In this document: in pieces, positions 1-37,137 of the stretch | How the letters are laid out: every line of letters starts with the position of its first letter | How positions within the stretch are numbered: the first letter of the stretch is position 1 | NCBI GenBank assembly: GCA_947625735.1 | Contig: CANQPL010000019.1 | Location: 1 to 50,620, forward strand | DNA length: 50,620 nucleotides | Reading direction: 5' to 3' | Source: an uncultured Clostridia bacterium | GTDB taxonomy: Bacteria; Bacillota; Clostridia; Oscillospirales; Ruminococcaceae | The notes under the pieces: model-generated | Told to the model about the DNA's origin: nothing | The model's database searches: none | The model's input: only the letters and a program-made list of their open reading frames with translations | Translations under genes and position numbers: made by a program

Positions 1-1842
1 GACGGAATTGAGGAGATTACACTTCCCGATACAATTACATCTATTGACGATTATGCTTTTGCAGATTGTAAGAACTTATCAAAAATAAATATGTCTGAAA
101 ATCTTATTACAATAAAAATGAATGCATTTAATAAATGTACTGCATTAGATAATGTTGAATTTCCTGAATATCTTGAAACAATAGGCGGGTATGCTTTCGC
201 TAACAGTGGATTAACAAACTTAGTACTTTCGAATAGCGTTATTACAATAGATTATAATGCATTTTCAAATTGTAATAAATTATCATCGGTAACGCTTTCA
301 AAGTCATTACAAAAAATGGGAACAGAAGTATTTGAAGATTGTGACAAAATAACGTCAATAGAAATACCAAAGAGTTTAGAAAAAGGCGATTATCACTATT
401 TCGATAACCAATACAAAGGAGTTTTTTCAAATTGCAGTAATTTGAAAGAGGTAACTTTTGAAAGAGGAACTACAAGAGTGGCATATGGTTTATTTGCAGG
501 CTGTGACGGAATTGAGGAGATTACACTTCCCGATACAATTACATCTATTGACGATTATGCTTTTGCAGATTGTAAGAACTTGTCAAAAATAAATATGTCT
601 AACAAACTTAGTAATATTGGAAATAGTGCATTTAGACGCTGCCAGAAACTTAAATCCATTGAAATCCCGGACGGCGTAACATATGTTGGAGTACAGTCTT
701 TCGAAGGCTGCACCAAACTTGAAACTGTGCATATGTCAGAAAAAGTTACCACAATTAAAAGCAACACATTCAACGGCTGTACAGCACTCAGAGAGATAAA
801 TTTCCCCGCAGGTCTTACAAAGATAGAGGAAAACGCTTTTAATGGCTGCAAAGGAATAGTTTCGATAGAAATACCCGAAGGTGTTACATCTATCGGAAAC
901 AAGGCTTTCTGCGACTGCGAAGCGTTGGAGACAGCAGTTCTTCCCGATGGACTAAAAACCCTCGGTACAGAATGTTTCCGTGATTGCATACTTCTTGAAA
1001 AAGTAACCATAGGTGAGGGTATTACGACAATTCCTATTTCTGCGTTCAGGGGAACATACATCGAAAGCATCACCCTCCCGTCCACGGTAACAAAAATAAG
1101 TGATTACGCATTTGCAGAATGTGTGAATCTGAAAAAGATCGTTATTCCCTCATCGGTAACCTCTATTTCGGCAACGAACGTGTTCTCTTATCCGAAAAAA
1201 ATGACGATATATGGTGTAAAAGGCTCTTATGCTCAAACGTATGCTAATGAAAAGGGAATAGCATTTGTAGAGCTTGTGCAAGATGCGATCACAAATGAAG
1301 AATACGGCATTACTGTTATACCGACAGACGGAGGGCTGAAGCCCGGAATTACATTGCGTGTCAATAAGATCAACATAACTGATGAGATCGCCTCTGAGAT
1401 TGACGGAGCGGCTGTAGGTTATGAGATCGCCCTGATGGACGGAGATATCGAAGTCCGTCCCGGCAGTGAACTTCAGGTAGTTATCAAGATTCCCGATGAT
1501 ATCAACGGTTTGACGGTAAAGGCGTGGAGAATGGGAGCTGACGGAGCATTTACTGATGCAAATGCTTCCTATGATCCGCAGAATGATACTATCAGCTTTA
1601 CTGCAAATCGGTTAGGCATTTACGTACTCTCCGAAAAATCCGGAACTGATTTCACAAAGGGCGATTTAAATTCTGATGGAACCATTAATATTCTCGACCT
1701 TGCGATCATGCGCAGATACCTTTCAGGAAATGAATCGGAGATAGATATGCAGGCGGCAGATCTTGACGGAAACGGAGATGTAACCATTCTTGATCTTGCA
1801 ATTATGAGGCGTTATCTTGCAGGGAATATTGATACTTTATAA
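1..1842 (+). CDS. BspA-type leucine-rich repeat protein with C-terminal dockerin (5' end outside window)
   Basis: The frame is open from base 1, so the gene starts upstream and only its last 613 codons are present. Residues 1 to about 400 are LRR_5/BspA repeats of roughly 23 residues with the pattern I-P-x-x-V-T-x-I-G-x-x-A-F-x-x-C. A beta-rich module follows (about 420-550, ending ISFTANRLGIYVLSEK), which recurs before the dockerin in the next two genes. The last 60 residues are a type I dockerin with two calcium loops (DLNSDGTIN and DLDGNGDVT) and helices ending MRRYLSGN and MRRYLAGN. The family is secreted and binds surfaces or proteins; the dockerin would plug into a cohesin such as the one encoded at 7634. 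The next gene starts 57 bp downstream. Bases 1-95 repeat at 505-599. I cannot see a signal peptide because the start is missing. Confidence 0.9.
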   Translation, partial: DGIEEITLPDTITSIDDYAFADCKNLSKINMSENLITIKMNAFNKCTALDNVEFPEYLETIGGYAFANSGLTNLVLSNSVITIDYNAFSNCNKLSSVTLSKSLQKMGTEVFEDCDKITSIEIPKSLEKGDYHYFDNQYKGVFSNCSNLKEVTFERGTTRVAYGLFAGCDGIEEITLPDTITSIDDYAFADCKNLSKINMSNKLSNIGNSAFRRCQKLKSIEIPDGVTYVGVQSFEGCTKLETVHMSEKVTTIKSNTFNGCTALREINFPAGLTKIEENAFNGCKGIVSIEIPEGVTSIGNKAFCDCEALETAVLPDGLKTLGTECFRDCILLEKVTIGEGITTIPISAFRGTYIESITLPSTVTKISDYAFAECVNLKKIVIPSSVTSISATNVFSYPKKMTIYGVKGSYAQTYANEKGIAFVELVQDAITNEEYGITVIPTDGGLKPGITLRVNKINITDEIASEIDGAAVGYEIALMDGDIEVRPGSELQVVIKIPDDINGLTVKAWRMGADGAFTDANASYDPQNDTISFTANRLGIYVLSEKSGTDFTKGDLNSDGTINILDLAIMRRYLSGNESEIDMQAADLDGNGDVTILDLAIMRRYLAGNIDTL

Positions 1843-1899
1843 AAAAAGTAAGGGGTATTCCTGTACGATATAAAATATAACTAAAGCAGGAGGTTTACA

Positions 1900-4800
1900 A
1901 TGAATAGAAAGAAAGTTATGGGAGCGATGCTTGCGCTGTTGATAGCAGGTTCGGCAATGCCTGCGGGGAGCGCAACGGAGCTGCCGGGGTTGACAATTAC
2001 AGCAGGGGCTGAGGAACAAGCAACAGGAGATGTGGTGATAGATGAAACTACTTTTCCTGATGAGAATTTCAGAAATTATGTTCTGAGAGAATTTGATAAG
2101 GACGGTGACGGGAAGTTATCCGGGTCGGAAGTTGAGGCTGTTTCAGAAGTCGTTGTCGATTATATGGGAATTACTGATTTGACGGGAGTTGAATATTTTA
2201 CAAATGTTGAAAAAATTTCCTGTTTCCATAATGCTCTGACAACACTGAAAATAAGTAACATGCCTAAGCTCAGTAATCTTGAATGTGCATATAATGAGAT
2301 TAAATCGTTGAACATCAGCAACTTTCCTGCTCTTACAAATTTAAGCTGTACAAATAATAATATGGAAAGTCTGGTTCTGGACAATATGCCTGTGCTTGCG
2401 ACTATCTGGTGTGCAGGCAATTCGTTAGCAAGTCTTGACCTGAGCGGTGTACCCAATCTTAAAAATCTTTATTGTTTCAGTAATGATCTTAAGGAATTGA
2501 TTATAAGCGATCATCCGGTACTTGAAAACCTTGATTGCGGATCCAATTATCTTACATCATTGAATATCAGTAAACTGCCGGCACTGAAATCCCTTGATTG
2601 CAGCTTCAATAATCTTACGACATTGGATATCAGCAATCAACCGCAACTGACATCTCTGGATTGTCATGGCAATGATATTAACAATATTATATTCTGTGAA
2701 GAAAATGACATTTTGCAGGTGTTATGCTCATTCAATAAGGAATATTTATTTGATGACCGGATAGAGGAAACACAATCTCATGGCATGAGTGTCAACAGCA
2801 GCTTTCCAATGCAATGGGTCGATGATAACGGCTGTGTATCCCTTAGGTTTCTTCTTAACTATGATTTTGATACAACTGTTCCGATGGAATGGAAGGGTGC
2901 AGATTACGATCCTGTCACGAACACACTTAGTAATATTACAAGTGAATATGTTACTTTCAGCGGAAAGCAGCATGGAATGATCAGGGTTGCGGATATCGGC
3001 GGAATAAATATTTCAGATGAGACTTTTCCCGATCCTGCTTTCAGAGATTACATAAAAGAAAACTGTGACAAAAATCAGAATGATATTCTTTCCTCAAATG
3101 AAATTGAATCTGTAACCAGTTTGAATCCACAGGCTCTCGGCATTCGTTCATTGCAGGGGTTAGAGTATTTTACGAATCTGGAATTTCTCTATTGCAATAA
3201 TAATGAGCTTACAGATCTTGATCTAAGCTGCACACCTGAGCTTACAGAACTCGTTTGCAACTATAATGCGCTAACAAGTCTTGACCTGAGCAGCACGCCC
3301 GATCTTACAGAACTACAATGTGCCGGTAATGCTATTACAGATCTTGACCTGAGCAATACCCCCAATCTTACGTATCTCAATTGCGACGATAATGCGCTAA
3401 CAAGTCTTGACCTGAGCCACACATCCGGATTTACATCTCTCTTTTGCTGTTACAATGAGCTTGCAACTCTTAACCTGGGCAACAACCCTGAGCTTACAGA
3501 ACTCTATTGCTACGGCAATAAACTTACAGACCTTGACCTGAGCCACACGCCCAAGCTTATGGAGCTTGCTTGTAGCTATAATGCTCTGGCAAGTCTTGAC
3601 CTGAGCCATACGCCCGATCTTACATCTCTCGATTGTGATAGTAATGATCTGACAAATCTTGACCTGAGCTATATGCCCGATCTTACGTATCTCAGCTGCA
3701 ACGGTAATGCTCTGACAAGCTTTGATCTGAGCAATGTGCCAAATCTTACAAGTCTCGATTGCGGATATAATGATCTGACAAGTCTTGACCTGAGCCGGAC
3801 GCCCAAGCTTACGAGTATCCGTTGCGGCGGTAATGCTCTGACAAGTCTTGACCTGAGCTGCACTCCCAGTCTTACGGATCTCGATTGTAGCAATAATCCT
3901 CTGACAAGTCTTGACCTGAGCTGCACTCCCAGTCTTACGGATCTCGATTGTAGCAATAATCCTCTGGCAAGTCTTGACCTAAGCTACACGCCCGATCTTA
4001 CATATCTCGTTTGTGATAGTAATGATCTGACAAATCTTGACCTGAGCCACACGCCCGATCTTACATATCTCATTTGTGATAGTAATGATCTGACAAATCT
4101 TGACCTGAGCCACACGCCTAAGCTTACGTCTCTCCAATGTAACGAAAATGCTCTGACAAGCTTTGATCTGAGCAATGTGCCAAATCTTACAAGTCTCGAG
4201 TGCGGATATAATCATCTGACAAGTCTTGACCTGAGCAACAACCCTGAGCTTACAGTACTCTATTGCTACGACAATAAGCTTACAGACCTTGACCTGAGCC
4301 ACACGCCCAATCTTTATAATCTTCGTTGCAACAATAATGCTCTGACAAGTCTTGATCTTACCGGTACAAAGGTTACAAGCGAAAGTTTCTATTGTGATAT
4401 TTATGATAATTGTTACCTTATTGGTGCTGCCTACAACGGTACATTTTCACTTAAAGAGCTCGAGCAGTACGGCTTTGACCCCGCAAGGGCTTCCAACTGG
4501 CAGGGAGCAACTTACGATAGCGCAACCGACAGCCTGACCGGGTTTACTTCAAGTACCATTACTTATGATTACGACTGCGGAAACGACATTACCGTAACAT
4601 TTACCCTTTCAGCCGATCTGCAGATCGTCAATGAAGAGTACAGCACTACCGTGTCTGCCGCTGATGGCGAGCTTTCCTTTACTGATGAGGAGGGCAATGC
4701 GGTTTCCGACAGCAGCGATGTTATCCTTGAAGTTGAGCCTGCCGACGATCAGCTGACCGATGAAAACAAGCAGGCGATAGAAGCAGAAAATCAGACAGTA

Positions 4801-5232
4801 GCGGCAGTATTTGACATTACCCTGACCTGTGACGGACTTACCGTTCAGCCTGACAATTCCATAAAGGTTTCTATCGGAGTTCCCGAGGGTGTAGACGGCA
4901 GTGCCTCTGTGATCCGCAGACTGGAAAAAGACGGCAGTTTTACGGTAATGGACAGCGTATATGACCCCGAAACAAATACCATAAGCTTTGTTACAAATCA
5001 TCTGAGCATTTATGTTATCTCCGAAAAATCCGGCGCTGATTTCACAAAGGGCGATTTAAACTCTGATGAAACCATTAACATTCTTGACCTTGCTATCATG
5101 CGCAGATATCTTTCGGGTAATGAATCTGAGATAGATATGCAGGCGGCAGATCTTGACGGAAACGGTGATGTAACCATTCTTGATCTTGCAATTATGAGAC
5201 GTTATCTTGCAGGGAATATTGATTCATTCTAA
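1900..5232 (+). CDS. Secreted LRR protein with EF-hand-like modules and C-terminal dockerin
   Basis: 1110 residues; the ATG at 1900 follows GCAGGAGG. A signal peptide (about 1-25) begins MNRKKVMGAMLALLIAG. Residues 40-75 form a module with an EF-hand-like loop (DKDGDGKLSGSE), then about seven irregular LRRs (107-290). A second module of the same kind (about 372-420) precedes about 18 LRRs of exactly 21 residues (424-820) with the pattern L-T-x-L-D-L-S-x-T-P-x-L-T-x-L-x-C-x-x-N. One Cys sits at the same place in almost every repeat. A beta-rich module lies at about 905-1040 and a dockerin at 1049-1110. The likely role is extracellular binding, held on the cell through the dockerin. The gene sits between two close paralogues, and its last 260 bp nearly match those of the next gene. 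No catalytic motif is visible, so the ligand cannot be told from sequence. Confidence 0.92.
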   Translation: MNRKKVMGAMLALLIAGSAMPAGSATELPGLTITAGAEEQATGDVVIDETTFPDENFRNYVLREFDKDGDGKLSGSEVEAVSEVVVDYMGITDLTGVEYFTNVEKISCFHNALTTLKISNMPKLSNLECAYNEIKSLNISNFPALTNLSCTNNNMESLVLDNMPVLATIWCAGNSLASLDLSGVPNLKNLYCFSNDLKELIISDHPVLENLDCGSNYLTSLNISKLPALKSLDCSFNNLTTLDISNQPQLTSLDCHGNDINNIIFCEENDILQVLCSFNKEYLFDDRIEETQSHGMSVNSSFPMQWVDDNGCVSLRFLLNYDFDTTVPMEWKGADYDPVTNTLSNITSEYVTFSGKQHGMIRVADIGGINISDETFPDPAFRDYIKENCDKNQNDILSSNEIESVTSLNPQALGIRSLQGLEYFTNLEFLYCNNNELTDLDLSCTPELTELVCNYNALTSLDLSSTPDLTELQCAGNAITDLDLSNTPNLTYLNCDDNALTSLDLSHTSGFTSLFCCYNELATLNLGNNPELTELYCYGNKLTDLDLSHTPKLMELACSYNALASLDLSHTPDLTSLDCDSNDLTNLDLSYMPDLTYLSCNGNALTSFDLSNVPNLTSLDCGYNDLTSLDLSRTPKLTSIRCGGNALTSLDLSCTPSLTDLDCSNNPLTSLDLSCTPSLTDLDCSNNPLASLDLSYTPDLTYLVCDSNDLTNLDLSHTPDLTYLICDSNDLTNLDLSHTPKLTSLQCNENALTSFDLSNVPNLTSLECGYNHLTSLDLSNNPELTVLYCYDNKLTDLDLSHTPNLYNLRCNNNALTSLDLTGTKVTSESFYCDIYDNCYLIGAAYNGTFSLKELEQYGFDPARASNWQGATYDSATDSLTGFTSSTITYDYDCGNDITVTFTLSADLQIVNEEYSTTVSAADGELSFTDEEGNAVSDSSDVILEVEPADDQLTDENKQAIEAENQTVAAVFDITLTCDGLTVQPDNSIKVSIGVPEGVDGSASVIRRLEKDGSFTVMDSVYDPETNTISFVTNHLSIYVISEKSGADFTKGDLNSDETINILDLAIMRRYLSGNESEIDMQAADLDGNGDVTILDLAIMRRYLAGNIDSF
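3205..4360 (+). repeat. Tandem 63-bp LRR-coding repeats
   Basis: About 18 in-frame 63-bp units encode the 21-residue LRRs of the second LRR block. Units 3841-3903 and 3904-3966 are identical, and neighbours near 4000-4125 differ by only one or two bases. The array has therefore been expanding or converting recently. Confidence 0.9.
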
Positions 5233-5282
5233 AAAAGTAAGGAGTAATCCTGTACTATATAAAATAAAAAAGGAGGTTTGAG

Positions 5283-7577
5283 ATGAACAGGAAAAAACTT
5301 ATGGGAGCGGTGCTTGCGCTGCTGATTGCAGGATCGTTACCGCCTTTAACGCAGGTTCCCGGGCTGCCGGGGCTGACGATCACAGCAGGGGCGGAAACCC
5401 GGAATGGCGGAGGTGTGGTTATAGATGATACTGCGTTTCCCGATGAGAATTTCAGAGGTTATGTTCTGGGAAACATAGACAGCAACGGCGATGAGTTACT
5501 GTCAAGTGAAGAAATCGCCAATGTGACCCAAATTGATGTAACCTATATGAAAATAAAGTCTTTACAGGGGTTGGAGTATTTTACGAGTCTTAAGAAACTC
5601 GATTGCGACAATAATTATCTTACAGATCTTGACTTGAGCCACACGCCCGATCTTACGAACCTCAATTGTACAGGTAATGATCTGACAAGTCTTGACCTGA
5701 GCCACACGCCCGAGCTTACAAATCTCCGTTGCGGTCATAATGAGCTTACATATCTTGACCTGAGTCACACGCCCAAGCTTACGAGTATCGATTGCTATTG
5801 GAATGATTTGAAAAGTCTTGAATTATGTTATATGCCCGATCTTTCTGAACTCAATTGCGGTAATAATGATTTATCAAGTTTTGACCTGAGCTACACACCC
5901 GGTCTTACGTATTTTGCCTGCGCACGGAATAATCTGACAAGTCTTGACCTGAGTTATACGCCTAATCTTATGCGTATCAGTTGCACCGGTAATGCTCTGA
6001 CAAGTCTTGACCTGAGCTATACGCCCGATCTTACGTATCTCAGCTGCGACGGTAATGCTCTGACAAGTCTTGACCTGAGCCATACGCCTAAGCTTAAGGA
6101 TCTCGATTGCGCAAGCAATGCTCTGACAAGTCTTGACCTGAGCTATACGCCTAATCTTACGTATCTCAGCTGCAGCCATAATTCTCTGACAAGTCTTGAC
6201 TTGAGCTACACGCCCGATCTTAAAGAACTTTATTGTTACGATAACGCTCTGACAAGTATTGACCTGAGTTATACGCCTAATCTTACGTATCTCAGCTGCG
6301 GCAATAATTCTCTGACAAGTATTGACTTGAGTCACACGTCCAAGCTTACGGATCTCTATTGCGGCAGCAATGACCTGACAAGTCTTGACCTGAGCTACAC
6401 ACCAAAGCTTACGTATATCAATTGTAGCGATAATGCTCTGACAAGTATTGACCTGAGTCACACGCCCGATCTTACGGAGTTTGGTTGCGCCGATAATTTT
6501 CTGACAAGTATTGACCTGAGCCACACGCCAGATCTTACGAATTTCGAGTGCAGCGGTAACGCTCTGACAAGCCTTGACCTGAGCCACACGCCCGGGATTA
6601 CACGACTCGTTTGCGATAATAATGCTCTGACAAGTATTGACCTCAGCTACATACCCAATCTTACGTATCTAATTTGTGACAGGAATGCTCTTACAAGTAT
6701 TGACCTGACAGGAACAAAAGTTATAAACTATTCATTCTGGTGCTATTACAACAGTTACGGCATTGACCTCACTGCAAACAGCACATACCCCCTCTCCGGG
6801 CTTAGAAAAAACGGCTTTGACCCTTCAAAGGCATCTAACTGGCAGGGAGCGACCTACGACAGTACAACCGACAGCCTGATAAACTTTACTTCTGATACTG
6901 TCACCTATAATTATAACTGCGGAAAAAACAATACAGCACAGTTTAAACTTATCGTCCGGGAATGGATTATCAATGAAGCGTATGATGTGACGGTATCCGC
7001 CGTCAAAGGAGAGCTTTCATTTAAAGATGAATCCGGAAACACCCTTCCCGGGGACAGTGAAGTCATTCTTGATGTGCGTCCCGCCGATAAGACCCTTGCC
7101 GATGCTGTTCGGGTAGAGATTGAGGCAGAGGGGAAAAAACTCCAGGCTGTGTATGATATCCGGCTTCTTTCTGATGGTGTTGACGTTCAGCCGGAAGGCT
7201 CGGTCATTGTTACCATGAAGCTCCCCGAGGGAACGGACGGCAGCAAGGTAAAGATACACCGCCGTGAAGCGGACGGCTCGTTTACCGATATGCACGCTGT
7301 CTATGACCCCGAAACAAATACCATAAGCTTTGTTACAAATCATCTGAGCATTTATGTTATTTCCGAAAAAACCGGCGCTGATTTCACAAAGGGCGATTTA
7401 AACTCTGATGAAACCATTAACATTCTTGACCTTGCTATCATGCGCAGATATCTTTCGGGTAATGAATCTGAGATAGATATGCAGGCGGCAGATCTTGACG
7501 GAAACGGTGATGTAACCATTCTTGATCTTGCAATTATGAGACGTTATCTTGCAGGGAATATTGACAGCTTTGAATGA
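5283..7577 (+). CDS. Secreted LRR protein with C-terminal dockerin
   Basis: 764 residues, a shorter paralogue of the preceding gene. The ATG at 5283 follows AAAGGAGG with good spacing. The signal peptide begins MNRKKLMGAVLALLIAG. A single EF-hand-like module (about 43-80, DSNGDELLSSEE) precedes 17 LRRs of 21 residues (about 106-465), each with a conserved Cys in the L-x-C-x-x-N turn, closed by a cap (LTSIDLTGTK). The beta-rich module (about 560-695) and the dockerin (701-764) are almost identical to those of the gene before. The spacers in front of this gene and of the one at 1900 share an AAAAAAGTAAGG...CCTGTAC.ATATAAAAT segment, so gene plus spacer was probably duplicated as a unit. Function beyond extracellular binding is unknown. 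Confidence 0.92.
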   Translation: MNRKKLMGAVLALLIAGSLPPLTQVPGLPGLTITAGAETRNGGGVVIDDTAFPDENFRGYVLGNIDSNGDELLSSEEIANVTQIDVTYMKIKSLQGLEYFTSLKKLDCDNNYLTDLDLSHTPDLTNLNCTGNDLTSLDLSHTPELTNLRCGHNELTYLDLSHTPKLTSIDCYWNDLKSLELCYMPDLSELNCGNNDLSSFDLSYTPGLTYFACARNNLTSLDLSYTPNLMRISCTGNALTSLDLSYTPDLTYLSCDGNALTSLDLSHTPKLKDLDCASNALTSLDLSYTPNLTYLSCSHNSLTSLDLSYTPDLKELYCYDNALTSIDLSYTPNLTYLSCGNNSLTSIDLSHTSKLTDLYCGSNDLTSLDLSYTPKLTYINCSDNALTSIDLSHTPDLTEFGCADNFLTSIDLSHTPDLTNFECSGNALTSLDLSHTPGITRLVCDNNALTSIDLSYIPNLTYLICDRNALTSIDLTGTKVINYSFWCYYNSYGIDLTANSTYPLSGLRKNGFDPSKASNWQGATYDSTTDSLINFTSDTVTYNYNCGKNNTAQFKLIVREWIINEAYDVTVSAVKGELSFKDESGNTLPGDSEVILDVRPADKTLADAVRVEIEAEGKKLQAVYDIRLLSDGVDVQPEGSVIVTMKLPEGTDGSKVKIHRREADGSFTDMHAVYDPETNTISFVTNHLSIYVISEKTGADFTKGDLNSDETINILDLAIMRRYLSGNESEIDMQAADLDGNGDVTILDLAIMRRYLAGNIDSFE
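5610..6720 (+). repeat. Tandem 63-bp LRR-coding repeats
   Basis: Seventeen 63-bp in-frame units coding for the 21-residue LRRs. The recurring core is ACAAGTCTTGACCTGAGC. The repetition also keeps other frames open, which produces spurious antisense reading frames. Confidence 0.9.
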
Positions 7578-7588
7578 TAAGTATATAA

Positions 7589-7603
7589 CCGTCTAACAGA
7601 CGG
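7589..7603 (+). other. Small hairpin in the intergenic spacer
   Basis: CCGTCT-AAC-AGACGG is a perfect 6-bp stem with a 3-nt loop, 12 bp after a dockerin gene stop and 30 bp before the scaffoldin start. No T-run follows, so it is unlikely to terminate; it could be an mRNA-processing or stability element. Confidence 0.4.
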
Positions 7604-7633
7604 AAATATAAATAAATAATGGAGGAAAAAAAG

Positions 7634-10498
7634 ATGAAACGACTAACAGCATTTCTGACAGCAGTGGTCATGTGTCTGTTTCAACTAACACCATTAAGTA
7701 TGATTAGTATGATGGTGTATGCTGAAACAGCACCTGTACCGTTGAAGACGACAATCACAAGCGGAGCGATTTCAGGACCCGGTGATGAGGTAACAGCAGT
7801 CATATCTCTGGGTCAGATGAGAAATCTGTGGACAATAAGCCTTAACATTACATATGACGCAAATGTAATGACTCTGAAAACAGAAAACATTAAACCTCTG
7901 GGATATCTGAAAGCTAATCAGGCAGGCGTGGTTATCCCCGCACAGACAAAGATCGATCAGTATGAAAGCGGTACAGCAGATGCTGTAAAGGTATCGTATG
8001 CTGATGAAGGCAATGCGGTTATCACAGGAGATCTTGTGGAACTGACCTTTACAATTAAGGATACTGTAAAAAATGGAACATACCCTATATCTGTATCCGC
8101 ATCCGAATTGTATTATCTTGAAGATGATGGCATCAATTACGGTGAGCTGACACCGGAAGCACCTGTGCCGGGCGGCGATCAAGAAGCTGAAGTGGAGATT
8201 ACAGGCGGTATAAGCACAGTTTCCACACTGAAAAAGCTTACTATTGACGGCTGCACCCTTGCCCCCGCATTCTCCTCTAATGTAACAGCTTACACAGCTA
8301 CTGTACCCTTCGGAAAGAGCGTGCCTACAATAGCTAAGGCGAATGCAGTTCCCACCGACTCCAAAGCAACAGTAGCCATTACACAGGCAACAAGCTTTGA
8401 AGAAGGCGAAAATGTTGCAACTATTGTTGTAACCGCAGCATCCGGTGATGCAGCAGACAGCACGACCTACACAATTACATTCGTTGCTCAGGAACAGACA
8501 GAAACACCCGTTATCAGTCCTTCTGATACTGTTATCAAGAGAGATACAGAGATCACTATTACGGGCAATGGCACTATCTACTACACCACAAGCGGCGCTA
8601 CACCTCAGCCCGGTGCTGACGGTACAAAGGTATACACAGGTTCCATTAAACCTGCTGATATTGTACCTCTGAATGTCAACGAGCTTACCATTACAGCAGT
8701 TGCTGTAGAAGAGGGCAAGGCAGCAAGTGAACAGGCACAGATGAAATACACACTTCCTGATGCAGATTTCACCCTCAGCGCTCTTACAGTAAACGGTGTG
8801 TCTGTAGAAGGCTTTGATCCTGCAAAATTTGAATACACCTATGAAGTATCCTATAAGGACTGGAAAGACGCTAAGGACAAGATATACACTATCGCAGCAA
8901 CTCCTAAAAATCCCGATGCTGTAGTACTTTATAGCGAAAATGATTTTGCTCTTGCAGGCGACAGCGAACAGAATACTCTTAAGGAAGCAACAGTTACCGT
9001 TACATCTGTAAACGGCGATTCGGGCGAATATAAGATCACATTCGTAGTGCTTGCGTGTGTACATGATATGGATCTTACCGATACCGTTCCCGCAGAGTGC
9101 CTGACTGCCGGCAAGGAGACCTACACCTGCACGGTTTGCGGTCATATCGAAGAAAAAGAGCTTGCGGCACTGGGTCATTCTTACAAGGAGAGCGGACATC
9201 TTGATGCTGCTTGTGAAACTGCAGGTTATGACGAATACACCTGTGAAAGATGCGGCGACACCTACAGAGAAACAATACCGGCTACCGGACATGATTGGGA
9301 CGAGGGAAAGGTTACTCTTGGCGCTTCCTGCGAAATTGACGGAAATACACATTATGTGTGCAAAAACGATCCTACTCACACCAAAGACGAGCCTAAGCCT
9401 CCTAAGACAGGACATAAGTGGGGATTCTGGACAAAGGACGAGACTCTTCCCGATACCTACTACAGAGTATGCGAAAATGACAACAACCACAGAGACGTAA
9501 AGACAGCAGCAGAAATAGATCATGAGCATAATTTCAATGGCGGAAACGTTGTTCCCGTAAAGTCACCTACCTGCTCCGAAAAGGGTCTGCAATATGTATA
9601 CTGCACATATGAAAGCTGCCCTGAATATGTGGAGGAGGAGCTGGATATGCTGCCTCATACACCCGGTGAAGCAGAGATTGTAACCGCACCTGATTGTGTA
9701 AATATCGGCAAATCTCAGGTAAAGTGTACTGTCTGCGGAAATGTTCTTGAAGAAAATGATATTCCTGCAATAGGTCACACCTATGGAGAAGCATGGGAAA
9801 GCGATGCAGCAGGACACTGGCACGTATGCAGCGTATGCGGTGAAAAATCTGCTCGCGAAGCTCATGTTGAGGACGGCGGTGTAGTTACCACACCTGCAAC
9901 ACAGGAGGCAGAGGGCGTAAGAACATATTCCTGCACCATCTGCGGCGCACAGACAAGAACCGAAACCATTGCAAAGCTCCCTGAGGAGCATACTCACACA
10001 CCCTCCACAGAGGGAGGAGTTGCTGCATGGAGCAGTGACATCAACGGACATTGGCAGGTTTGCGAGTGCGGCGAAGTGCTGAACTATTCGGCACATACTG
10101 ACCTTGTAAACGTAGTAGTTACAGAAGCAACAGCCACAACAACAGGTCTTGTTGAATCTCGCTGCAGCGTCTGCGGTTATGTTGTTGCAACTAATGTAAT
10201 TCCTGCAACCGGCAGCAACACACCCGGTCAGGATACACCCGGTCAGGATACACCCGGTCAGACCACTGATCCTGACAACAATTTTAACGAGCATGCTTTC
10301 TGGGCAGCAGTTTCCGGCACCGGAAAGACAGGCGTAAACAATGAAACACCTGCACCCAAGGTGGAAAGCGTAGAAGCAGGAGCAGGCATAACAGAGGAGA
10401 GTGCTGACACATCTGCACCTCTTGCAGTTATAGTCATTGCAGCAGTTCTTGGAACTGCGGCAGCAGCACTTACCATTAAGAGAAGAAGACAGAAGTAA
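7634..10498 (+). CDS. Membrane-anchored cohesin protein (single-cohesin scaffoldin-like)
   Basis: 954 residues. I chose the ATG at 7634 because GGAGG at 7621-7625 precedes it; the ATG at 7619 lies inside that ribosome site. The signal peptide is 1-30 (ends VYA). Residues about 34-195 fit a cohesin: GPGDEVTAVISL, a WTISLNITYD strand, ITGDLVELTFTIKD and a closing EITGG. Two cadherin-like beta-sandwiches (about 198-290, 375-470) flank a CHB_HEX_C-like module (about 295-370). A Cys-rich stalk (about 474-865) has about ten C-x-x-C-G-type modules, often with IPAxGH. A PGQDTPGQ linker leads to one membrane helix (about 928-948) and a basic KRRRQK end. I see no LPxTG, so anchoring is by membrane insertion. 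It is the only cohesin candidate in the window and lies among eight dockerin genes, so it is their likely surface receptor. The cohesin call is by pattern and needs structural support. Confidence 0.8.
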   Translation: MKRLTAFLTAVVMCLFQLTPLSMISMMVYAETAPVPLKTTITSGAISGPGDEVTAVISLGQMRNLWTISLNITYDANVMTLKTENIKPLGYLKANQAGVVIPAQTKIDQYESGTADAVKVSYADEGNAVITGDLVELTFTIKDTVKNGTYPISVSASELYYLEDDGINYGELTPEAPVPGGDQEAEVEITGGISTVSTLKKLTIDGCTLAPAFSSNVTAYTATVPFGKSVPTIAKANAVPTDSKATVAITQATSFEEGENVATIVVTAASGDAADSTTYTITFVAQEQTETPVISPSDTVIKRDTEITITGNGTIYYTTSGATPQPGADGTKVYTGSIKPADIVPLNVNELTITAVAVEEGKAASEQAQMKYTLPDADFTLSALTVNGVSVEGFDPAKFEYTYEVSYKDWKDAKDKIYTIAATPKNPDAVVLYSENDFALAGDSEQNTLKEATVTVTSVNGDSGEYKITFVVLACVHDMDLTDTVPAECLTAGKETYTCTVCGHIEEKELAALGHSYKESGHLDAACETAGYDEYTCERCGDTYRETIPATGHDWDEGKVTLGASCEIDGNTHYVCKNDPTHTKDEPKPPKTGHKWGFWTKDETLPDTYYRVCENDNNHRDVKTAAEIDHEHNFNGGNVVPVKSPTCSEKGLQYVYCTYESCPEYVEEELDMLPHTPGEAEIVTAPDCVNIGKSQVKCTVCGNVLEENDIPAIGHTYGEAWESDAAGHWHVCSVCGEKSAREAHVEDGGVVTTPATQEAEGVRTYSCTICGAQTRTETIAKLPEEHTHTPSTEGGVAAWSSDINGHWQVCECGEVLNYSAHTDLVNVVVTEATATTTGLVESRCSVCGYVVATNVIPATGSNTPGQDTPGQDTPGQTTDPDNNFNEHAFWAAVSGTGKTGVNNETPAPKVESVEAGAGITEESADTSAPLAVIVIAAVLGTAAAALTIKRRRQK

Positions 10499-10521
10499 AT
10501 ATCAGGTTATCTCCTTAAAGC

Positions 10522-10555
10522 AAATGCCGGAATCTGTATTTTGATTTCGGCATTT
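10522..10555 (+). terminator. Rho-independent terminator after the scaffoldin gene
   Basis: A 13-bp stem (AAATGCCGGAATC pairs with GATTTCGGCATTT, one G-T pair) with an 8-nt loop begins 24 bp after the stop, followed by a T-rich tail (GTTGTATATTTGTTT). It probably ends the first transcription unit. Confidence 0.65.
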
Positions 10556-10570
10556 GTTGTATATTTGTTT

Positions 10571-10692
10571 CAGGTCAGTAATATAAGGATAATGACCTGA
10601 TATCAGATCGCAGGCGGGTAAATATCGGACGGAGAGATATTTTCTGCTCTTTGCCGCAGCAAAAGTCTGTGATCTGATATAAAGTCATTATC
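10571..10692 (+). other. Structured intergenic element, possible leader RNA
   Basis: This lies in the 268-bp gap before the LRR-dockerin gene at 10767. Arms 10588-10615 and 10665-10692 are 28-nt inverted repeats with 24 of 28 positions complementary. They enclose smaller hairpins, for example AATATC with GATATT. A competing short hairpin (CAGGTCA 10571-10577 with TGACCTG 10593-10599) uses part of the left arm, so the two folds exclude each other. This resembles a leader or switch, but no known riboswitch family is recognised and no clear promoter is seen. Confidence 0.45.
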
Positions 10693-10766
10693 TGCATTGG
10701 CTTTGATATGTAGGTTTAGTTATGAACTGTAAGATTAACACAGAAAATATTTTTTGAAAGGAAAGA

Positions 10767-14195: not shown

Positions 14196-14213
14196 TTTTT
14201 GGAGGACTGTAAA

Positions 14214-18407: not shown

Positions 18408-18458
18408 TGAATTTTCCAAAGCTTTAACCATATTCAAAAAAAGAAAGAGGTAATTATT

Positions 18459-19751
18459 ATGAAACTGAAAAAAATTGCTGCATTGGTACTTTCGACTGCA
18501 CTTCTGAATTTTGGCGTGACAGCCTTTGCTAACACGGAAGACAACAGTGCAGAGGTACTCCTTCCTCCGGAAAATACATACGATAACGACCCTCGGGTGA
18601 TCCTGCTTTCTCCGGAAGAGGTAACACAGGCAAATGAGGCTCTGGAGGAATATCGTGCCCGGCAGGAATACTCCATAAGCACGGTATCGCTGAATGATGA
18701 TTATTTTACCTACGATTATACCCGTGACTGGTTCTACAATGAACTGAATGACACCGAAAAACAGCTGTATCGTGAGATGTACGAAGGTTGTCTGAATTTT
18801 GTGGATTCCACAGAAACACTGGAGAGATATCCGTATAGTAATGTAATTTATGGAATTTTTGATACCACCGGTGAATATCCGGATCTGTCCCTTGATCGGA
18901 TCAGGCAGATATACGATGTTTTCCGCTTTTCCAATCCCCAGTTTTATTTCTTTGACAGCGGTCTGACCGTCTTTGATCCGCTGTATCATAGTGTATATCT
19001 GGTATGCGAGGGGGAGCTTATGGATGGCAGCAAGAGACAGGAGATCAATGCTGTGATCCGAGAAAAAACTGATGAATGGCTTCCCCTCATCAAGGCAGAA
19101 AAAAATCCTCTGGATAAGGTAATGCGTATTGCTCATATAATCTGCGACAATGTGGAATACGGCTTTGGTCCGGATACAGGAACTGACAGATCGGAATTTC
19201 ATCAGACCATGGCGGGCTCCATTGGTGAGGGTGTGAGCGTGTGCAACGGTTATGCTATGGCAGCTGCCTATCTGTGCCACCTGGTGGATATCCCATGTGT
19301 AGGTGTAAACGGCGATAACCACGCATGGAACCGGGTAAAGCTTTTCGGAGATTGGTACGAATTTGACACAACATGGGCAGACAGTCGATATGTAAACGGT
19401 CCGGCTTTCTTTGACTCAAAGTGGATTCTGAAGAGTACGGCGACCTTCCAGGCACAGGACAAAGCAATGGGAAAAACTTCCCATACCCCTGAAGAACCTA
19501 TGTATGTGGATCTTCCGCTTCCTCTCTGCCTGAAAGACGACCCGCAGGTTCCTGATTTTATTAAGGGTGATGTAAACGGCAGCGGCGAAATAGATATTCT
19601 TGACCTTGCCACCATGCGCAGACACCTTGCAGGAAACCCGACAGAGATAGACGAGCAGGCGGCAGATCTTGACGGAAACGGCGACATAACTATTCTTGAC
19701 CTTGCAATACTGCGTCGTTATCTTGCGGGCAATGAAGAAGTATTAGGATAA
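18459..19751 (+). CDS. Secreted transglutaminase-like (papain-fold) protein with dockerin
   Basis: 430 residues; the ATG at 18459 follows AAGAGG. Signal peptide about 1-24 (ends TAFA). The core (about 175-310) has the transglutaminase-like triad arrangement: Cys262 in GEGVSVCNGYAMAA, His288 in NGDNHAWNRV and Asp303 in WYEFDTTWAD. Bacterial members act as peptidases, cross-linkers or cyclisation enzymes on the cell surface or outside the cell. The dockerin is at about 368-430. It is the only dockerin protein in this locus with a visible catalytic triad, so it may process or cross-link proteins of the complex or host and plant proteins; that is inference. The gene lies between an RCC1 gene (51 bp upstream) and an LRR gene (18 bp downstream), almost certainly in one operon. 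Confidence 0.88.
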   Translation: MKLKKIAALVLSTALLNFGVTAFANTEDNSAEVLLPPENTYDNDPRVILLSPEEVTQANEALEEYRARQEYSISTVSLNDDYFTYDYTRDWFYNELNDTEKQLYREMYEGCLNFVDSTETLERYPYSNVIYGIFDTTGEYPDLSLDRIRQIYDVFRFSNPQFYFFDSGLTVFDPLYHSVYLVCEGELMDGSKRQEINAVIREKTDEWLPLIKAEKNPLDKVMRIAHIICDNVEYGFGPDTGTDRSEFHQTMAGSIGEGVSVCNGYAMAAAYLCHLVDIPCVGVNGDNHAWNRVKLFGDWYEFDTTWADSRYVNGPAFFDSKWILKSTATFQAQDKAMGKTSHTPEEPMYVDLPLPLCLKDDPQVPDFIKGDVNGSGEIDILDLATMRRHLAGNPTEIDEQAADLDGNGDITILDLAILRRYLAGNEEVLG

Positions 19752-19769
19752 TTTTTGGAGGAATGTAAA

Positions 19770-22700: not shown

Positions 22701-24668
22701 CTGAAAATGACGAGCAGCAAATCTTGTGTTGATGTTAAAGGCGATCTGACATTTAATGCTAAGAAATACGACTCACACGATACATTGACAAATGGTGTGC
22801 TGAAAATCGGCGGCAGCTTTTACGGTTCCAAAAATACCGGAAATTTTCAAGCTTCCGGCGATCATGTTACTCAATTCTACAGCTCTGATTCGTTTAAAAT
22901 TGAAATGAACACCAAGCTCGACAGCAATAATACCAAAAACTCATATTTCAATAATCTTATTTTTACAGATGAAGCAAACGACAATTTTAATGGAACAATC
23001 AATACGTTCAATGTCAAAGGATATTTCCGCCTTAACCAAAAAAATGGTGAGGATCTGAAAACTAAATTTGCCGATTATGTCGGTACAGATGAAGCTGTAA
23101 ATGCAATCCAACAAAAATTTTCTTCATTTTATGACGGAAAATCATCTTATGACGGGACAACTTCTTCATTAGCAACCAGCCTTGGTTCGGCAAGTAAGTA
23201 TCTTTCCAATAACAGTATCAAAGAGATAGCGGCATCTACCGAAATGTTTTTTGAACTTGAGGTAATGAATGAGGACAATAATAATAATATCAAGGTTGAA
23301 GGTTTAGAAATTCGTATCAATAAATTCAATAAATTGATTTCTTTTGAAAACGTTCCGTTGAAAAACAGCAAAGACACAGTAAACGTATATGTTTATCTTG
23401 ATGCATCAGGAACCGGCTTAATGGCATCGACGTCATTATTATGCAGCGCAACATGGTTTATTATGAATAAGGATATTACACTCAGTGGAACAGCGGTCAT
23501 GACATATTCTGCAACAGATTCCCTGTACAATGATCTAAGAAAAATATATAATGAAAAGGCACATGGCAATGATTATTGGTACTGGTGTGTTCAAGTCGCA
23601 AATGATTTTCTTGGCGGGTACAATAAACTTTCAGGTGCAAAGGCATTTAAGAACGCCCAGACAGCATTAAATATAGTCGATAAATGTGTTGAAAGTGTAA
23701 AGAAGGGCAATGTCGATCCTTTCCTTAAAAAGTTCACCGACGGCAACCAAGCAGTGAAATTGTTTGAAAATATGAATAAGGTTGTTGACGGAAAAATTTC
23801 TTGGATAGAATATTTTAAATGCCCTGTTGACGTTGAGGTGAGAGACGAAAACGGTCAGGTTGTCGGACTGATACAGAATAATACGGTCAAGGTCACCACG
23901 GAAGATGTTCAGATGTCTGTATCAGGCGATACAAAGATAATCAAAGTAAGCGACATAGGCAAGTACAGTATCAAGGTTACCGGAACAGATACGGGTACGG
24001 TTGACTATAAAGTAGATGAAGTAGTGAACGGAATGGCATACCGCAGAATATCCTTTGATGCGCTGCCGGTTGATACCAATACTGTTTATGAAGGCACAGC
24101 CGAATTTAAACAGTTTGCACCTGCCGAAAATTACAGACTTATAGATTATGACGGTAACTATTATTATGCAACAAGTGATGTGATGGATATGGACGGCAAT
24201 GAAATAACGGCACTGCCGGGAGAAGTAGAATATCATTCGGTATATATTCCCGAAAATGTCACAGTTACAGTAAACGGCATATCAATTGAAGATAAAGGCT
24301 GTGTATGCAGCGGAGATGTTCTTACTATAACTGCTGCACAGGTTGAAGGCAGTAAACTCTTCTCATTAAAGGTGAACGGAAATGATTTTGCAAACGGCGG
24401 TACATATACAGTTGAAAATGAGGATATTGAAATTACTGTAGAGTATCAGGAGCTCGGCATTGATGATGATAATTACATCAAAGGCGATGTAAACGGTGAC
24501 GGTAAAATAGACATTCTTGACCTTGCCACCATGCGCAGACATCTTGCAGGAAACCCGACAGAGATAGACGAAAAGGCGGCAGATCTTGACGGAAACGGCG
24601 ACATAACTATTCTTGACCTTGCAATACTGCGACGTTATCTTGCGGGAAATGAAGAAGTATTAAAATAA
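19770..24668 (+). CDS. Large secreted BspA-type LRR protein with dockerin
   Basis: 1632 residues; the ATG at 19770 follows GGAGGA by 7 nt. Signal peptide about 1-42 (ends VSA), then the TCGSSVSWNLGSDGTLTISG module often found before BspA repeats. LRR_5 repeats fill about 90-585 and include an exact-length internal duplication of 199 residues (20094-20690 against 20691-21287). Two related beta-rich domains follow (about 600-860, with SIDGL and FSFS motifs). Next is a probable beta-helix-like stretch (about 880-1060), a mixed region, then the CPVDVEVRDENG...GTDTGTVDY module shared with the 10767 gene. The dockerin is at about 1569-1632. The likely role is adhesion or binding. The copies differ at only a few bases, so the protein may vary in length between strains. 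Confidence 0.9.
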   Translation: MKKKKSMYLVGFLSAAMLAAGMIGSMPDTFPPVQPVAVSAETVNSGTCGSSVSWNLGSDGTLTISGSGAMTNYSSSTPAPWNSQKSAIKSVIITDGVTSIGNSAFRDCDSIETVSIPDTVTSIGSYAFYDCDKLTKVSFNSRDVYSYAFCSCDNLTTVVMGNTVKYIESNAFYNCKNLSNVTWSNNLTGIRSSAFWGTGLTELQMPDTVTTVGERAFAYSPLKNVHLSTSLTTLESGAFLDCDGLTAIEIPASLTKATEDYYSGDVTDNDEKVSSGYIGPFSHCDNLKGITFANGTTTVPGYLFYNCDSIETVSIPDTITSIGTYAFYDCDKLTKVSFNSRDVYSYAFCSCDNLTTVVMGNTVKYIESNAFYNCKNLSNVTWSNNLTGIRSSAFWGTGLTELQMPDTVTTVGERAFAYSPLKNVHLSTSLTTLESGAFLDCDGLTAIEIPASLTKATEDYYSGDVTDNDEKVSSGYIGPFSHCDNLKGITFANGTTTVPGYLFYNCDSIESIYIPKSAGSIGTSAFEGCENLIAVNIPDKVETIGNYAFRYCSNLTHIHIPEGKTYSDYAGKGSLPSEPSYYFPGGCGKDNCPLNGKVAGYELDTSLKNIDRINYSELTGYDKSAYNLSYFIRADADYDSIDGLIVRYELSDGFSFSENSNVNTKESIVEAYKIYDIWETFSDSLTIYPTGGFVESVTIKANVYNGSNLIVSDSETIPVGSEVNFKDYESEITINTNGYNIASGISYNDEDIIYNESTKEFNQTSYNLGFSMTQDIGENKSIDGLTVVFGLAHGFSFSPDSSEGKIQVTVKDNHTSSASETFNMEQPIYPDKNFDYSKIKSADIVARIYDEDQLIGTAVMSKKIQAEKTDNEETASPFGTEINSSNISDFKDKNGDLIIESGDYYTSGNVSCKNLYIKGGTLTVSSKSVLTVSENAEVTGGKEQFLIFGSDEKGGELSVYGTLNVNGNMTIGKTFGVLKMTSSKSCVDVKGDLTFNAKKYDSHDTLTNGVLKIGGSFYGSKNTGNFQASGDHVTQFYSSDSFKIEMNTKLDSNNTKNSYFNNLIFTDEANDNFNGTINTFNVKGYFRLNQKNGEDLKTKFADYVGTDEAVNAIQQKFSSFYDGKSSYDGTTSSLATSLGSASKYLSNNSIKEIAASTEMFFELEVMNEDNNNNIKVEGLEIRINKFNKLISFENVPLKNSKDTVNVYVYLDASGTGLMASTSLLCSATWFIMNKDITLSGTAVMTYSATDSLYNDLRKIYNEKAHGNDYWYWCVQVANDFLGGYNKLSGAKAFKNAQTALNIVDKCVESVKKGNVDPFLKKFTDGNQAVKLFENMNKVVDGKISWIEYFKCPVDVEVRDENGQVVGLIQNNTVKVTTEDVQMSVSGDTKIIKVSDIGKYSIKVTGTDTGTVDYKVDEVVNGMAYRRISFDALPVDTNTVYEGTAEFKQFAPAENYRLIDYDGNYYYATSDVMDMDGNEITALPGEVEYHSVYIPENVTVTVNGISIEDKGCVCSGDVLTITAAQVEGSKLFSLKVNGNDFANGGTYTVENEDIEITVEYQELGIDDDNYIKGDVNGDGKIDILDLATMRRHLAGNPTEIDEKAADLDGNGDITILDLAILRRYLAGNEEVLK
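20094..21287 (+). repeat. 597-bp tandem duplication inside the LRR gene
   Basis: Two head-to-tail copies, 20094-20690 and 20691-21287, keep the frame (199 codons each). I found three base differences, all within about 45 bp of the copy start; the rest appears identical. A partial third copy begins at 21288 (GATTCAATAGAG) and then diverges. Confidence 0.92.
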
Positions 24669-24686
24669 TTTTTGGAGGACTGTAAA

Positions 24687-27600: not shown

Positions 27601-28418
27601 GGATCCTGATGTGGGGAAGTAATTCTCATGGTCAGCTTGGCAACGGCACCACCACCGACAGCGGGGTTCCTGTGGAAGTTGATCTTAGCGGAGAAACAGC
27701 ATTATCTGTAATGGCAATTGCGGCAGAGGGAGACACATTTACCGGACTTATTCCCAATGAAGTATACAATATCTACGGAATGAAATCCCGCACAGTGGAA
27801 GATCCCTTTTCCTCTGACAATCTACTTTATATTTCTCAGGAAGTAAGTGACAGCAATGGAACGATCAGATATGATTACGCACCAAAAACTACATATCCCA
27901 ATCCGGAAATATTCTGCAAAGCTATGAAAGAATTTGATGTGGGCAATGCACATATCACAAGTGCGGAAACAACAACAGATAAAGTAACTTTAAAATGGGA
28001 CATTTATCCCGGTGCAACTGCGTATAAAGTGTATAAGGTAAGCGGCGGTATCTATTCGGAAGAAAAGGAAACCACCGTTCCAATGTGTATTATTTCCGGT
28101 TTGGAAAGCGGAAAGGAATATGGATTTATTGTCACAGCTAAAGTAAACGGCGAATGGTCATACAGATCCGATGACGATGTTATTTTTGTAGCCACACAGA
28201 AAGAGGACGAGCCGGAAAGCACTTTTACTAAAGGCGATGTAAACGGTGATGGCAAAATAGACATTCTTGACCTTGCCACCATGCGCAGACATCTTGCAGG
28301 AAACCCGACAGAGATAGACAAGCAGGCGGCAGATCTTGACGGAAACGGCGATATAACTATTCTTGACCTTGCAATACTGAGGCGTTATCTTGCGGGGAAT
28401 GAGGAAGTACTTTCCTGA
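24687..28418 (+). CDS. Secreted RCC1-propeller protein with dockerin (paralogue)
   Basis: 1243 residues; ATG at 24687, with the same GGAGGACTGTAAA leader as the 14214 gene. The first ~195 residues, including the signal peptide, are nearly identical to that paralogue; the sequences then diverge sharply, although the domain order stays the same. After a beta-rich domain (about 330-530) and a Cna-B-like domain (about 570-650) come seven degenerate RCC1 blades (about 665-1000, for example GVLYTWGSNGYGQLG). A GLIPNEVYNIYGMKSR module, an FnIII-like domain and the dockerin (1182-1243) follow. It is the last gene of the locus, 31 bp before a strong terminator. The blades are much more divergent than in the paralogue, so the two propellers probably bind different partners. 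Confidence 0.9.
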   Translation: MKMKKLLSMVTAVVLSVTMSAEVFAVDTPGSNGNSQTSISNEMQVTGTNSFGNMLAQEINAKENEQLENNGYNVFSVEVTGQTAEVELQTLKNSTVVVGVYTEDGSTLLQTANAAVTPDDETVKVTFAQALPEYFYIKAYLINSENMRPLCTVYECPNYTKEMQEFFKKTTADFPEDRVLNLDNDTANNFAVYSDDVKVISEQTGINNVTGSVNGTYVIENADENFTELKSGDMIAYEYGDNELILLSVDSISVNGSTVTITEKEASLEDAFEYIRIDSSADLENAVVDNSGLQEGVNYLGRVSSAEDHEEAQPYGIATIAEDTGIGSSSLKFSDEYEVFSKSLGDDNKKLDISGKIGFSLVGTVKYYMTLSQQYIEVSLDYEINAALKINASGKAEMKLSKFYIPIIPGINITVEPKLTFEVAVDADLTFKFSGSLGMKASVQEGVQNISKKPTFDGDATITGKLYVGIELKPDIEVINENIASVSLTGSAGIEVNGSMELVSDKPEGDKVHACQHCVDGSVKAKFSISFKATLLNIKQLTLEKTILDKSFDLFDFYFSLDTNQFGKGECPNMKYKVTFYVVDSAGKPLQNVMIMLNSGESTESGSDGYTKAIYLANGNYTAQTLDGEHREKTVSFNVDNSAVNGKWIMLYGINEVLPDSIAAKQIILGGASSAVITEEGDLYTWGNNDYAQLGNGTRVDAAYPMKVRENVASVDITSSYYCENFLRAGCGAFVLENGGLYVYGGNASGQLGYGTRSLKEVQTKPIRIMNDVKTVETALGVMGCLTNDGTLYLWGHLSKLNKPYDFNDFYGAGYYTPVEVAKNVSDFDIDSRGAYYIDENGSLYNVPSNTSEPIMENVVSVKAYGSSIVSVITSDGSLYLKGNNDYGQIGDGTYKSKSNFVKVMDNVASVSLGEYHVAAVTDDGVLYTWGSNGYGQLGTDDVSLLPNRIMDNVAAVSCGDYHTGVITKDGRILMWGSNSHGQLGNGTTTDSGVPVEVDLSGETALSVMAIAAEGDTFTGLIPNEVYNIYGMKSRTVEDPFSSDNLLYISQEVSDSNGTIRYDYAPKTTYPNPEIFCKAMKEFDVGNAHITSAETTTDKVTLKWDIYPGATAYKVYKVSGGIYSEEKETTVPMCIISGLESGKEYGFIVTAKVNGEWSYRSDDDVIFVATQKEDEPESTFTKGDVNGDGKIDILDLATMRRHLAGNPTEIDKQAADLDGNGDITILDLAILRRYLAGNEEVLS

Positions 28419-28449
28419 TTTTATCGACAAAACATAGTATAATTTTTAT

Positions 28450-28475
28450 ACCCGCAGGGAGGTTGCCCTGCGGGT
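28450..28475 (+). terminator. Strong rho-independent terminator of the dockerin locus
   Basis: ACCCGCAGGG and CCCTGCGGGT form a perfect 10-bp stem around a 6-nt loop, followed by ATTTTAT. It lies 31 bp after the last dockerin gene. Confidence 0.9.
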
Positions 28476-28915
28476 ATTTTATATACTGTAAACATAAGAT
28501 CAGCCCTGCTTCCTTCACAGCTAACGTAATTCCGCTTGCTCGGTGGTATGGTTTTCATAGGCGTTTTATATATTTTTTGAGTAATTATGCTGGACTTTGG
28601 TGAAATATGATAAATCAACCGTATTTATTCCGGTAGAATTAATGTCTGTTTGAGAGTAGTGTAATTTTATAGGGTAGTAAAACAACAAAAAATATTTATT
28701 AAACATTGCTCCTGTTCCACATACAATCTTTAAATTTTAATTACATTGAATCCTTATCAACAATAATTATCTGAATTTTCTTTTCCTGTTCAGTCGCCAG
28801 TTATTTTTTGGTAAGGTTTATTTGGAATTACAATAATATATCCGGAATGATTTTAAGATGTTTAACAGAAGCAACTGATTGAACAATGTAAAAAAACAGA
28901 TGTTATACTGCGTTG
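28476..28915. other. 440-bp gene-free region between convergent genes
   Basis: AT-rich sequence between the dockerin-locus terminator and the end of plsC. Apart from the isolated CRISPR-like unit I see no convincing ORF, RNA gene or terminator for plsC. Short antisense frames here lack ribosome sites. Confidence 0.6.
28648..28683. repeat. Isolated 36-nt type II CRISPR-like repeat
   Basis: The unit starts GTTTGAGAGTAGTG and ends GGGTAGTAAAAC. It is exactly 36 nt, with the GTTT and AAAC ends usual for type II repeats. I looked one repeat-spacer period (about 66 bp) to either side and found no second copy, and there is no cas gene in the window. It is a single orphan unit or part of an unrecognised RNA, not an array. 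Confidence 0.45.
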
Positions 28916-37092: not shown

Positions 37093-37137
37093 ACCCTTAA
37101 GAAAAATCCCATTGACCTTTCGGAAAGGAAGATGCAT

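Follow-up and report, generated by a model that had tools for sequence, protein, structure and literature searches.

Cohesin–dockerin pairs are also used outside cellulose degradation, as in the enzyme complexes of Clostridium perfringens, and non-cellulosomal systems of this kind are reportedly described by Peer et al. 2009. The cohesins of C. perfringens belong to glycoside hydrolases (GHs), as the titles and molecule names of PDB entries indicate. In contrast, eight GH-free dockerin proteins share one cohesin anchor in the locus described here. It occupies positions 1–28418 of contig CANQPL010000019.1 (C19; this whole contig of 50,620 nt is called the window) from an uncultured Ruminococcaceae bacterium (assembly GCA_947625735.1, 3.0 Mb, 93.6% complete). 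The locus is considered, with a probability of about 60%, to be a phase-variable, non-cellulosomal cohesin–dockerin surface display system.

Dockerins on similar proteins are described from Ruminococcus flavefaciens FD-1. Table 2 of PMC2930009 counts 28 leucine-rich repeat (LRR) modules among its dockerin proteins. Table 1 of the same paper lists an operon of four transglutaminase-like and one LRR dockerin proteins, all five of which are called transglutaminase-like in its text, and the authors proposed cell-surface structuring for such dockerins. Group-4 dockerins bind the surface cohesin ScaE (PMC5301203). Single cohesins are described in PMC4081043, and an NlpC/P60-like dockerin protein in PMC3573020. 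The group-4/ScaE system and the present locus have in common a single-cohesin surface anchor, head-to-tail operons of LRR- and transglutaminase-like dockerin proteins, and symmetrical dockerins (PMC2930009, PMC5301203). The preliminary description had set the locus apart from known ones; the LRR and transglutaminase-like dockerins of strain FD-1 (PMC2930009) are, however, precedents for it.

Differences are also observed (PMC2930009, PMC5301203). The R. flavefaciens system forms a side branch of a large cellulosome, in which there are 223 dockerin proteins, whereas no multi-cohesin scaffoldin was found here. ScaE is sortase-anchored, whereas the anchor of the present locus, P0004, has no LPXTG-like end. 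The recognition residues mutated in R. flavefaciens are Gly-Arg, in contrast to the local Ile-Leu/Arg-Arg, with positions matched by eye only. The invertible-promoter-like switch is a local feature. LRR- and transglutaminase-dockerins and non-cellulosomal use are thus already published; what is new is the putative recombinase/inverted-repeat switch, on contig C94 of this genome and at sister loci in another genus. No explanation has hitherto been available for the dockerins that ruminococcal genomes carry on LRR and transglutaminase-like proteins.

Invertons are found near surface genes in general, and in inverton group 139 a tyrosine recombinase is linked to inverted-repeat segments, with 32 of 33 invertons in Clostridia (PMC11892184). 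The local segments resemble this group in that combination; this is a likeness only and not a group assignment. Neither dockerin nor cohesin is mentioned in the main text of PMC11892184, whereas the local segment faces a cohesin–dockerin array. No open-access full text was found that pairs dockerin with "invertible" or "inverton", or that joins dockerin with BspA and Ruminococc-, or with leucine-rich repeat, adhesin and gut. Both dockerin and phase variation reportedly figure in a review of surface colonisation (PMC3796261), the only such paper among the matches listed.

The Dockerin Array and Its Cohesin Anchor

Nine open reading frames (ORFs) fill the + strand of 1–28418 (Table 1). Pfam matched Dockerin_1 in eight of the nine proteins (55.2–61.8 bits, cut-off 22.9). 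The remaining protein, P0004, matched Cohesin (32.8 bits, cut-off 24.1) at residues 53–162 of a 959-aa ORF that starts five codons before ATG 7634. The other Pfam matches are LRR_5 in P0001, P0005 and P0008, LRR_4 in P0002 and P0003, RCC1 in P0006 and P0009, and Transglut_core in P0007. The Cys/His/Asp triad of P0007 is presumably C262/H288/D303. No GH or carbohydrate-binding module (CBM) model matched any of the nine proteins, including all eight dockerin proteins, at E ≤ 0.01. The LRR_EndoS model also matches among the array proteins; it represents the LRR domain of an enzyme, not the catalytic domain.

P0004 is composed of a signal-peptide-like N-terminus, the cohesin, Cys-motif repeats, and a C-terminal transmembrane (TM)-like segment with RRRQK. 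Signal peptides and TM segments were called by eye. The cohesin domain has a genuine cohesin fold, and PDB entries 2vo8 and 2jh2, both C. perfringens cohesins, turned up in the fold comparison. Cadherin-like and Fn3-associated matches are weak, both just under the cut-off. There is no LPXTG-like motif near the C-terminus, and two IPATG words sit within the Cys repeats; some sister anchors terminate in PxTG-like motifs. A single cohesin on a surface protein, as in the ScaE type, is what P0004 shows, and not the several cohesins of a cellulosomal scaffoldin. A search for relatives of P0004, which possibly omits its own genome, found one locus, matching residues 481–724 only, at 28%.

These results agree with the preliminary description in its account of eight proteins with C-terminal dockerins and one membrane-anchored cohesin protein, its reading of the N-terminal domain as a cohesin, its LRR, RCC1 and transglutaminase-like calls, and the lack of GHs and CBMs. 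The non-cellulosomal character that it proposed is also supported, as neither GH/CBM domains nor a multi-cohesin scaffoldin were found.

The whole genome contains one PF00963 cohesin at E ≤ 10 and nine PF00404 dockerins, eight of them in the window. The clustering of eight of nine dockerins beside the sole Pfam cohesin is more than expected by chance. All eight local dockerins have two calcium-loop repeats (type I); in the first loop of P0002 and P0003, Glu replaces the usual Gly at position 6. Both repeats of all eight have Ile-Leu at positions 10–11 and Arg-Arg at 17–18, which we take to be the recognition sites in the numbering of type I dockerins. The last 192 nt of P0005 to P0009 are 0.88–0.96 identical to one another (ungapped).

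Because the duplicated Ile-Leu/Arg-Arg code is common to all eight, any local dockerin would fit the one cohesin. P0004 would act as a membrane-anchored stalk with a single cohesin socket, into which any of the eight proteins could plug, and the proteins displayed by one cell would be a mixture, each plugged in singly. The preliminary description proposed a surface assembly. Surface anchoring fits the TM-like C-terminus of P0004, but one cohesin on one anchor means that there is no multi-protein assembly on one scaffold. Monovalent display, with one of the eight plugs in the socket at once, therefore appears to fit better. The displayed proteins may have an adhesive or capture role, and the LRR domains suggest host interaction or protein capture. 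With eight linked dockerins, one Pfam cohesin, and no recognisable multi-cohesin scaffoldin, partner and purpose are directly testable.

Most LRR dockerins bound no tested cohesin in the R. flavefaciens microarray (PMC5301203), which speaks against the predicted binding of the local dockerins to P0004. They could instead serve other partners, such as the cohesins of another cell or homotypic contacts, with P0004 as an unrelated adhesin. The physical linkage here and in sister loci, where a cohesin anchor adjoins each array, makes this very unlikely.

The ninth dockerin, on contig C13, has the code FF/LE and RT/QR, unlike the local IL/RR, and its protein has no Pfam domain besides the dockerin. 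Its divergent neighbour (L040:4737–9602, 1621 aa) is homologous to most of P0004 (26% over 991 columns that cover P0004 residues 1–862, with E 8e-61 when searched against 17 anchors). The N-terminus of this neighbour is 43% identical over 206 columns to a protein of genome G169, which against PF00963 scores 24.1 as a domain (equal to the cut-off of 24.1) and 23.4 in the genome search, with no match for the whole protein. The dockerin protein adjacent to the G169 relative is 55% identical to the ninth dockerin protein. Pfam recognises no cohesin in L040 itself, either in the whole protein or in the domain alone, so that its cohesin is predicted from homology only. It is probable that L040 and the ninth dockerin constitute a second cohesin–dockerin pair with its own code. 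The relatedness of L040 to P0004 weakens the strict statement that the genome has only one cohesin.

A Putative Recombinase Switch on Contig C94

The array falls into two transcription units, unit I (P0001–P0003 and the anchor P0004) and unit II (P0005–P0009, 10767–28418), each followed by a terminator-like hairpin. No promoter match of at least 9/12 was found in 10400–11000, where 1.2 are expected.

P0001 is truncated by the contig edge. Its 5′ part is probably on contig C94 (4932 bp, L044:2534–4932), directly behind the recombinase switch. C94 terminates within an LRR ORF. Its last 60 nt are identical to window positions 405–464, and 194 of its last 200 nt match 265–464, a repeat inside P0001. 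The first 150 nt of the window match elsewhere in the genome only P0001's own repeat at 505–634 (90%). C94 is the probable left neighbour of the window, and the repeat registers would leave a gap of ~40 nt. In its N-terminal part, the LRR protein of C94 matched only LRR models in Pfam and no PDB sequence.

A tyrosine recombinase gene (PF00589) at 1141–2280 of C94 is bounded by perfect 23-nt inverted repeats (908–930 and 2329–2351). In 200 Markov controls of this contig, regenerated from a first-order chain and not exact dinucleotide shuffles, the longest perfect repeat had a mean of 12 and a maximum of 17. A strong promoter (TTGACT-17-TATAAT, 991–963) directed away from the array is the sole match of at least 10/12 between the first gene and a point 60 nt left of the repeat. 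Inversion would put this promoter ~240 nt ahead of the first gene's ATG. No copy of the C94 repeat was found across the window with up to 3 mismatches; unit II therefore lacks a recognisable switch of this type of its own.

Unit I, with LRR-dockerins and anchor, would thus stand behind a recombinase and an outward promoter between inverted repeats. Site-specific inversion would aim the promoter at the first dockerin gene (ON), and the assembled orientation would be OFF. With the anchor belonging to unit I, retention of any dockerin protein on the cell, unit II included, would depend on the switch. If the switch works, the cohesin–dockerin pair would be a population-level on/off surface module, altering the meaning of cohesin genes in such genomes.

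Inverted repeats of 21–26 nt with 0–2 mismatches surround the gene at all five tyrosine-recombinase-headed loci and at a sixth, L086. Among 19 recombinase segments bounded by such repeats (six dockerin-linked and 13 others of genus g13), 18 have an outward promoter of at least 11/12 near the repeat, against a Markov expectation of 0.10; these are consensus matches only. The exception is L102. The promoter score was set after the first five loci had been viewed, and the remaining 14 segments give 13/14; the segments are related, so the counts overstate independence. Nineteen recombinase loci, mostly better-scoring, were taken from a longer list (L086, L088–L105), and 14 of them were used together with the five earlier loci. 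L088, L095, L097, L103, and L105 were left out because they have no gene-spanning repeat of at least 17 nt with up to 2 mismatches. At L025, which has a resolvase, no repeat of at least 14 nt is present. Some other g13 segments precede, by reading, glycan-type genes or ~2300-aa surface proteins.

The recombinase segment could also be passive or a dead mobile element, with array expression driven by the recombinase transcript or an unseen promoter; the locus would then be a surface locus without phase variation. This is unlikely, although all six dockerin-linked switches were assembled with the recombinase co-directional to the array and, by reading, transposase-like debris lies left of the C94 recombinase, both of which favour it. 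Consensus assemblies may display only the commoner orientation. Inverted repeats and outward promoter would be prone to loss in dead elements but are retained together in 18 of 19 segments. L089 and L103 (the latter with a promoter of ~9/12, read by eye) have the opposite orientation relative to their targets, being assembled in the would-be ON orientation, with OFF relatives L090 and L104 in their respective genomes.

In the present genome, six of twelve recombinases have spanning repeats, C94 included, and all six are OFF-oriented. An outward promoter of at least 11/12 is near the repeat in five of the six; at L111 it is ~450 nt away. The five further segments (L107–L111) are on contigs C71, C15, C12, and C68 of this genome (G000), and the L109 segment precedes, by reading, genes resembling polysaccharide chain-length/tyrosine-kinase genes. 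Together with C94, they possibly represent a set of phase-variable loci.

Related Arrays in Other Genomes

In the genus, PF00963 was found in 2 of 20 genomes and PF00404 at E ≤ 0.001 in 5 of 20. The other cohesin genome, G011, has an adaptor (cohesin–dockerin) and an anchor, and its dockerins are scattered; among their carriers are a GH5 enzyme, a protein with LRR_5/DUF285 domains, and a Big_2 protein whose transglutaminase match is sub-threshold. Family-wide, PF00963 occurs in 149 of the 396 genomes that are at least 85% complete. In at least 18 of 50 other single-match genomes of the family, a dockerin is within 10 kb of a cohesin on the same contig; the G246 cohesin is under the cut-off, and additional cohesins appear at E ≤ 0.01 in several of the 50. 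Twenty stretches were examined further.

At the g13 loci L021, L022, L023, and L031, an array of LRR_5-, ricin-lectin- or RCC1-dockerin proteins is closed by a single cohesin anchor. As a whole protein, the L031 anchor is over the Pfam cohesin cut-off (42.1 bits), and those of L021, L022, and L023 are under it (22.4, 19.9, and 22.6); in the genome search, the best cohesins of G190 and G265 are over the cut-off. L086 has a lectin-dockerin protein and an anchor (25.0 bits); its recombinase is separated from the dockerin gene by two other genes. The L031 RCC1-dockerin protein is 37% identical to P0006 across the 600-aa N-terminal region. A recombinase with 21–26-nt inverted repeats and a promoter directed away from the array is present at L021, L022, L023, L053 (the left part of the L031 locus), and L086.

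On balance, we lean towards a self-contained, phase-variable plug-and-socket coat in some bacteria of the family without a cellulosome. An invertible promoter would flip a one-cohesin stalk together with interchangeable LRR, RCC1, lectin, and transglutaminase-like dockerin proteins, and one inversion would alter the whole repertoire.

Derivation from a cellulosome is improbable. The array would then be a remnant or offshoot, docking to carbohydrate-degrading scaffolds that are produced elsewhere, or to scaffoldins encoded in the 6% of the genome that is missing. The completeness of only 93.6%, the adaptor, anchor, and GH5-dockerin protein of the genus-mate G011, and the ricin-lectin dockerins in two sister loci count in its favour; the ricin-lectin domains are presumably CBM13-like. 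On the other hand, the genome has one Pfam cohesin, and neither the nine array proteins nor the ninth dockerin protein offers a carbohydrate-active domain: the former have no GH or CBM match, the latter only its dockerin.

L021 and L022 (G190 contigs C11 and C1) are two copies of a recombinase–dockerin–cohesin locus in one genome. Their switches and anchors are alike and their dockerin cargo is different, which may reflect duplication with repertoire change. In L032, the dockerin protein at 3626–7312 contains Big_2 domains, matches MACPF (25.2 bits, cut-off 21.5), and adjoins an ORF with the G132 cohesin match; it is possibly a pore-former on a cohesin–dockerin pair. GH25 lysozyme-type dockerin proteins are beside cohesin genes in two other genera (L026:4840–6291 and L029:5999–8179); the L029 cohesin is under the Pfam cut-off.

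Other Features of the Window

Table 1. Features of the array region and its terminator-like hairpins (positions in the window).
Feature	Position	Strand	Description	Evidence
P0001	1–1842	+	3′ part of BspA-type LRR (LRR_5) protein; C-terminal dockerin 1657–1818	Pfam
P0002	1900–5232	+	Cys-ladder LRR (LRR_4) protein; signal-peptide-like N-terminus; dockerin 5047–5208	Pfam
P0003	5283–7577	+	LRR_4 protein; signal-peptide-like N-terminus; dockerin 7389–7550	Pfam
P0004	7619–10498	+	Cohesin anchor; cohesin 7775–8104; likely start 7634	Pfam, fold
Hairpin	10519–10558	+	Terminator-like, 16 pairs; end of unit I, 3′ of cohesin gene	
P0005	10767–14195	+	LRR_5 protein with further ~600-aa region; dockerin 14007–14168; first gene of unit II	Pfam
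P0006	14199–18407	+	~600-aa N-terminal region; RCC1 propeller; weak fn3 match; dockerin 18219–18380; likely ATG 14214	
P0007	18459–19751	+	Transglutaminase-like (C262/H288/D303); dockerin 19563–19724	Pfam
P0008	19755–24668	+	BspA-type LRR protein; dockerin 24480–24641; likely ATG 19770	Pfam
P0009	24672–28418	+	Paralogue of P0006; RCC1 propeller; dockerin 28230–28391; likely ATG 24687	Pfam
Hairpin	28448–28477	+	Terminator-like; end of unit II	

The TTG starts of P0006, P0008, and P0009 are probably artefacts, as the ATGs at 14214, 19770, and 24687 follow GGAGG. In the alignment of P0006 and P0009 (14301–16100 and 24774–26573), the first ~160 residues are almost identical and the remainder is diverged, which suggests recent gene conversion or duplication within the array. 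A 600-aa model of their shared N-terminal region was poor (pLDDT 46). NCBIfam matches to internalin, HupY, SlrP, Gli349, and CelK were rejected; they are below the curated cut-offs, most of them far below, and represent shared repeats or the dockerin. The nearest NCBIfam model is the PARCEL repeat (29.5, cut-off 30).

The gene adjoining the array (28916–29638) has, in a mobile-island test, genus homologues only 27–32% identical, its own-genome paralogue included. Among ten neighbours scanned, the only GH is a GH59 (galactocerebrosidase-type) protein without dockerin (39739–42123, − strand), whose gene adjoins sensor kinase and solute-binding protein genes (42139–45110). A two-domain PPK2 polyphosphate kinase is encoded at 37132–38613 (+ strand).

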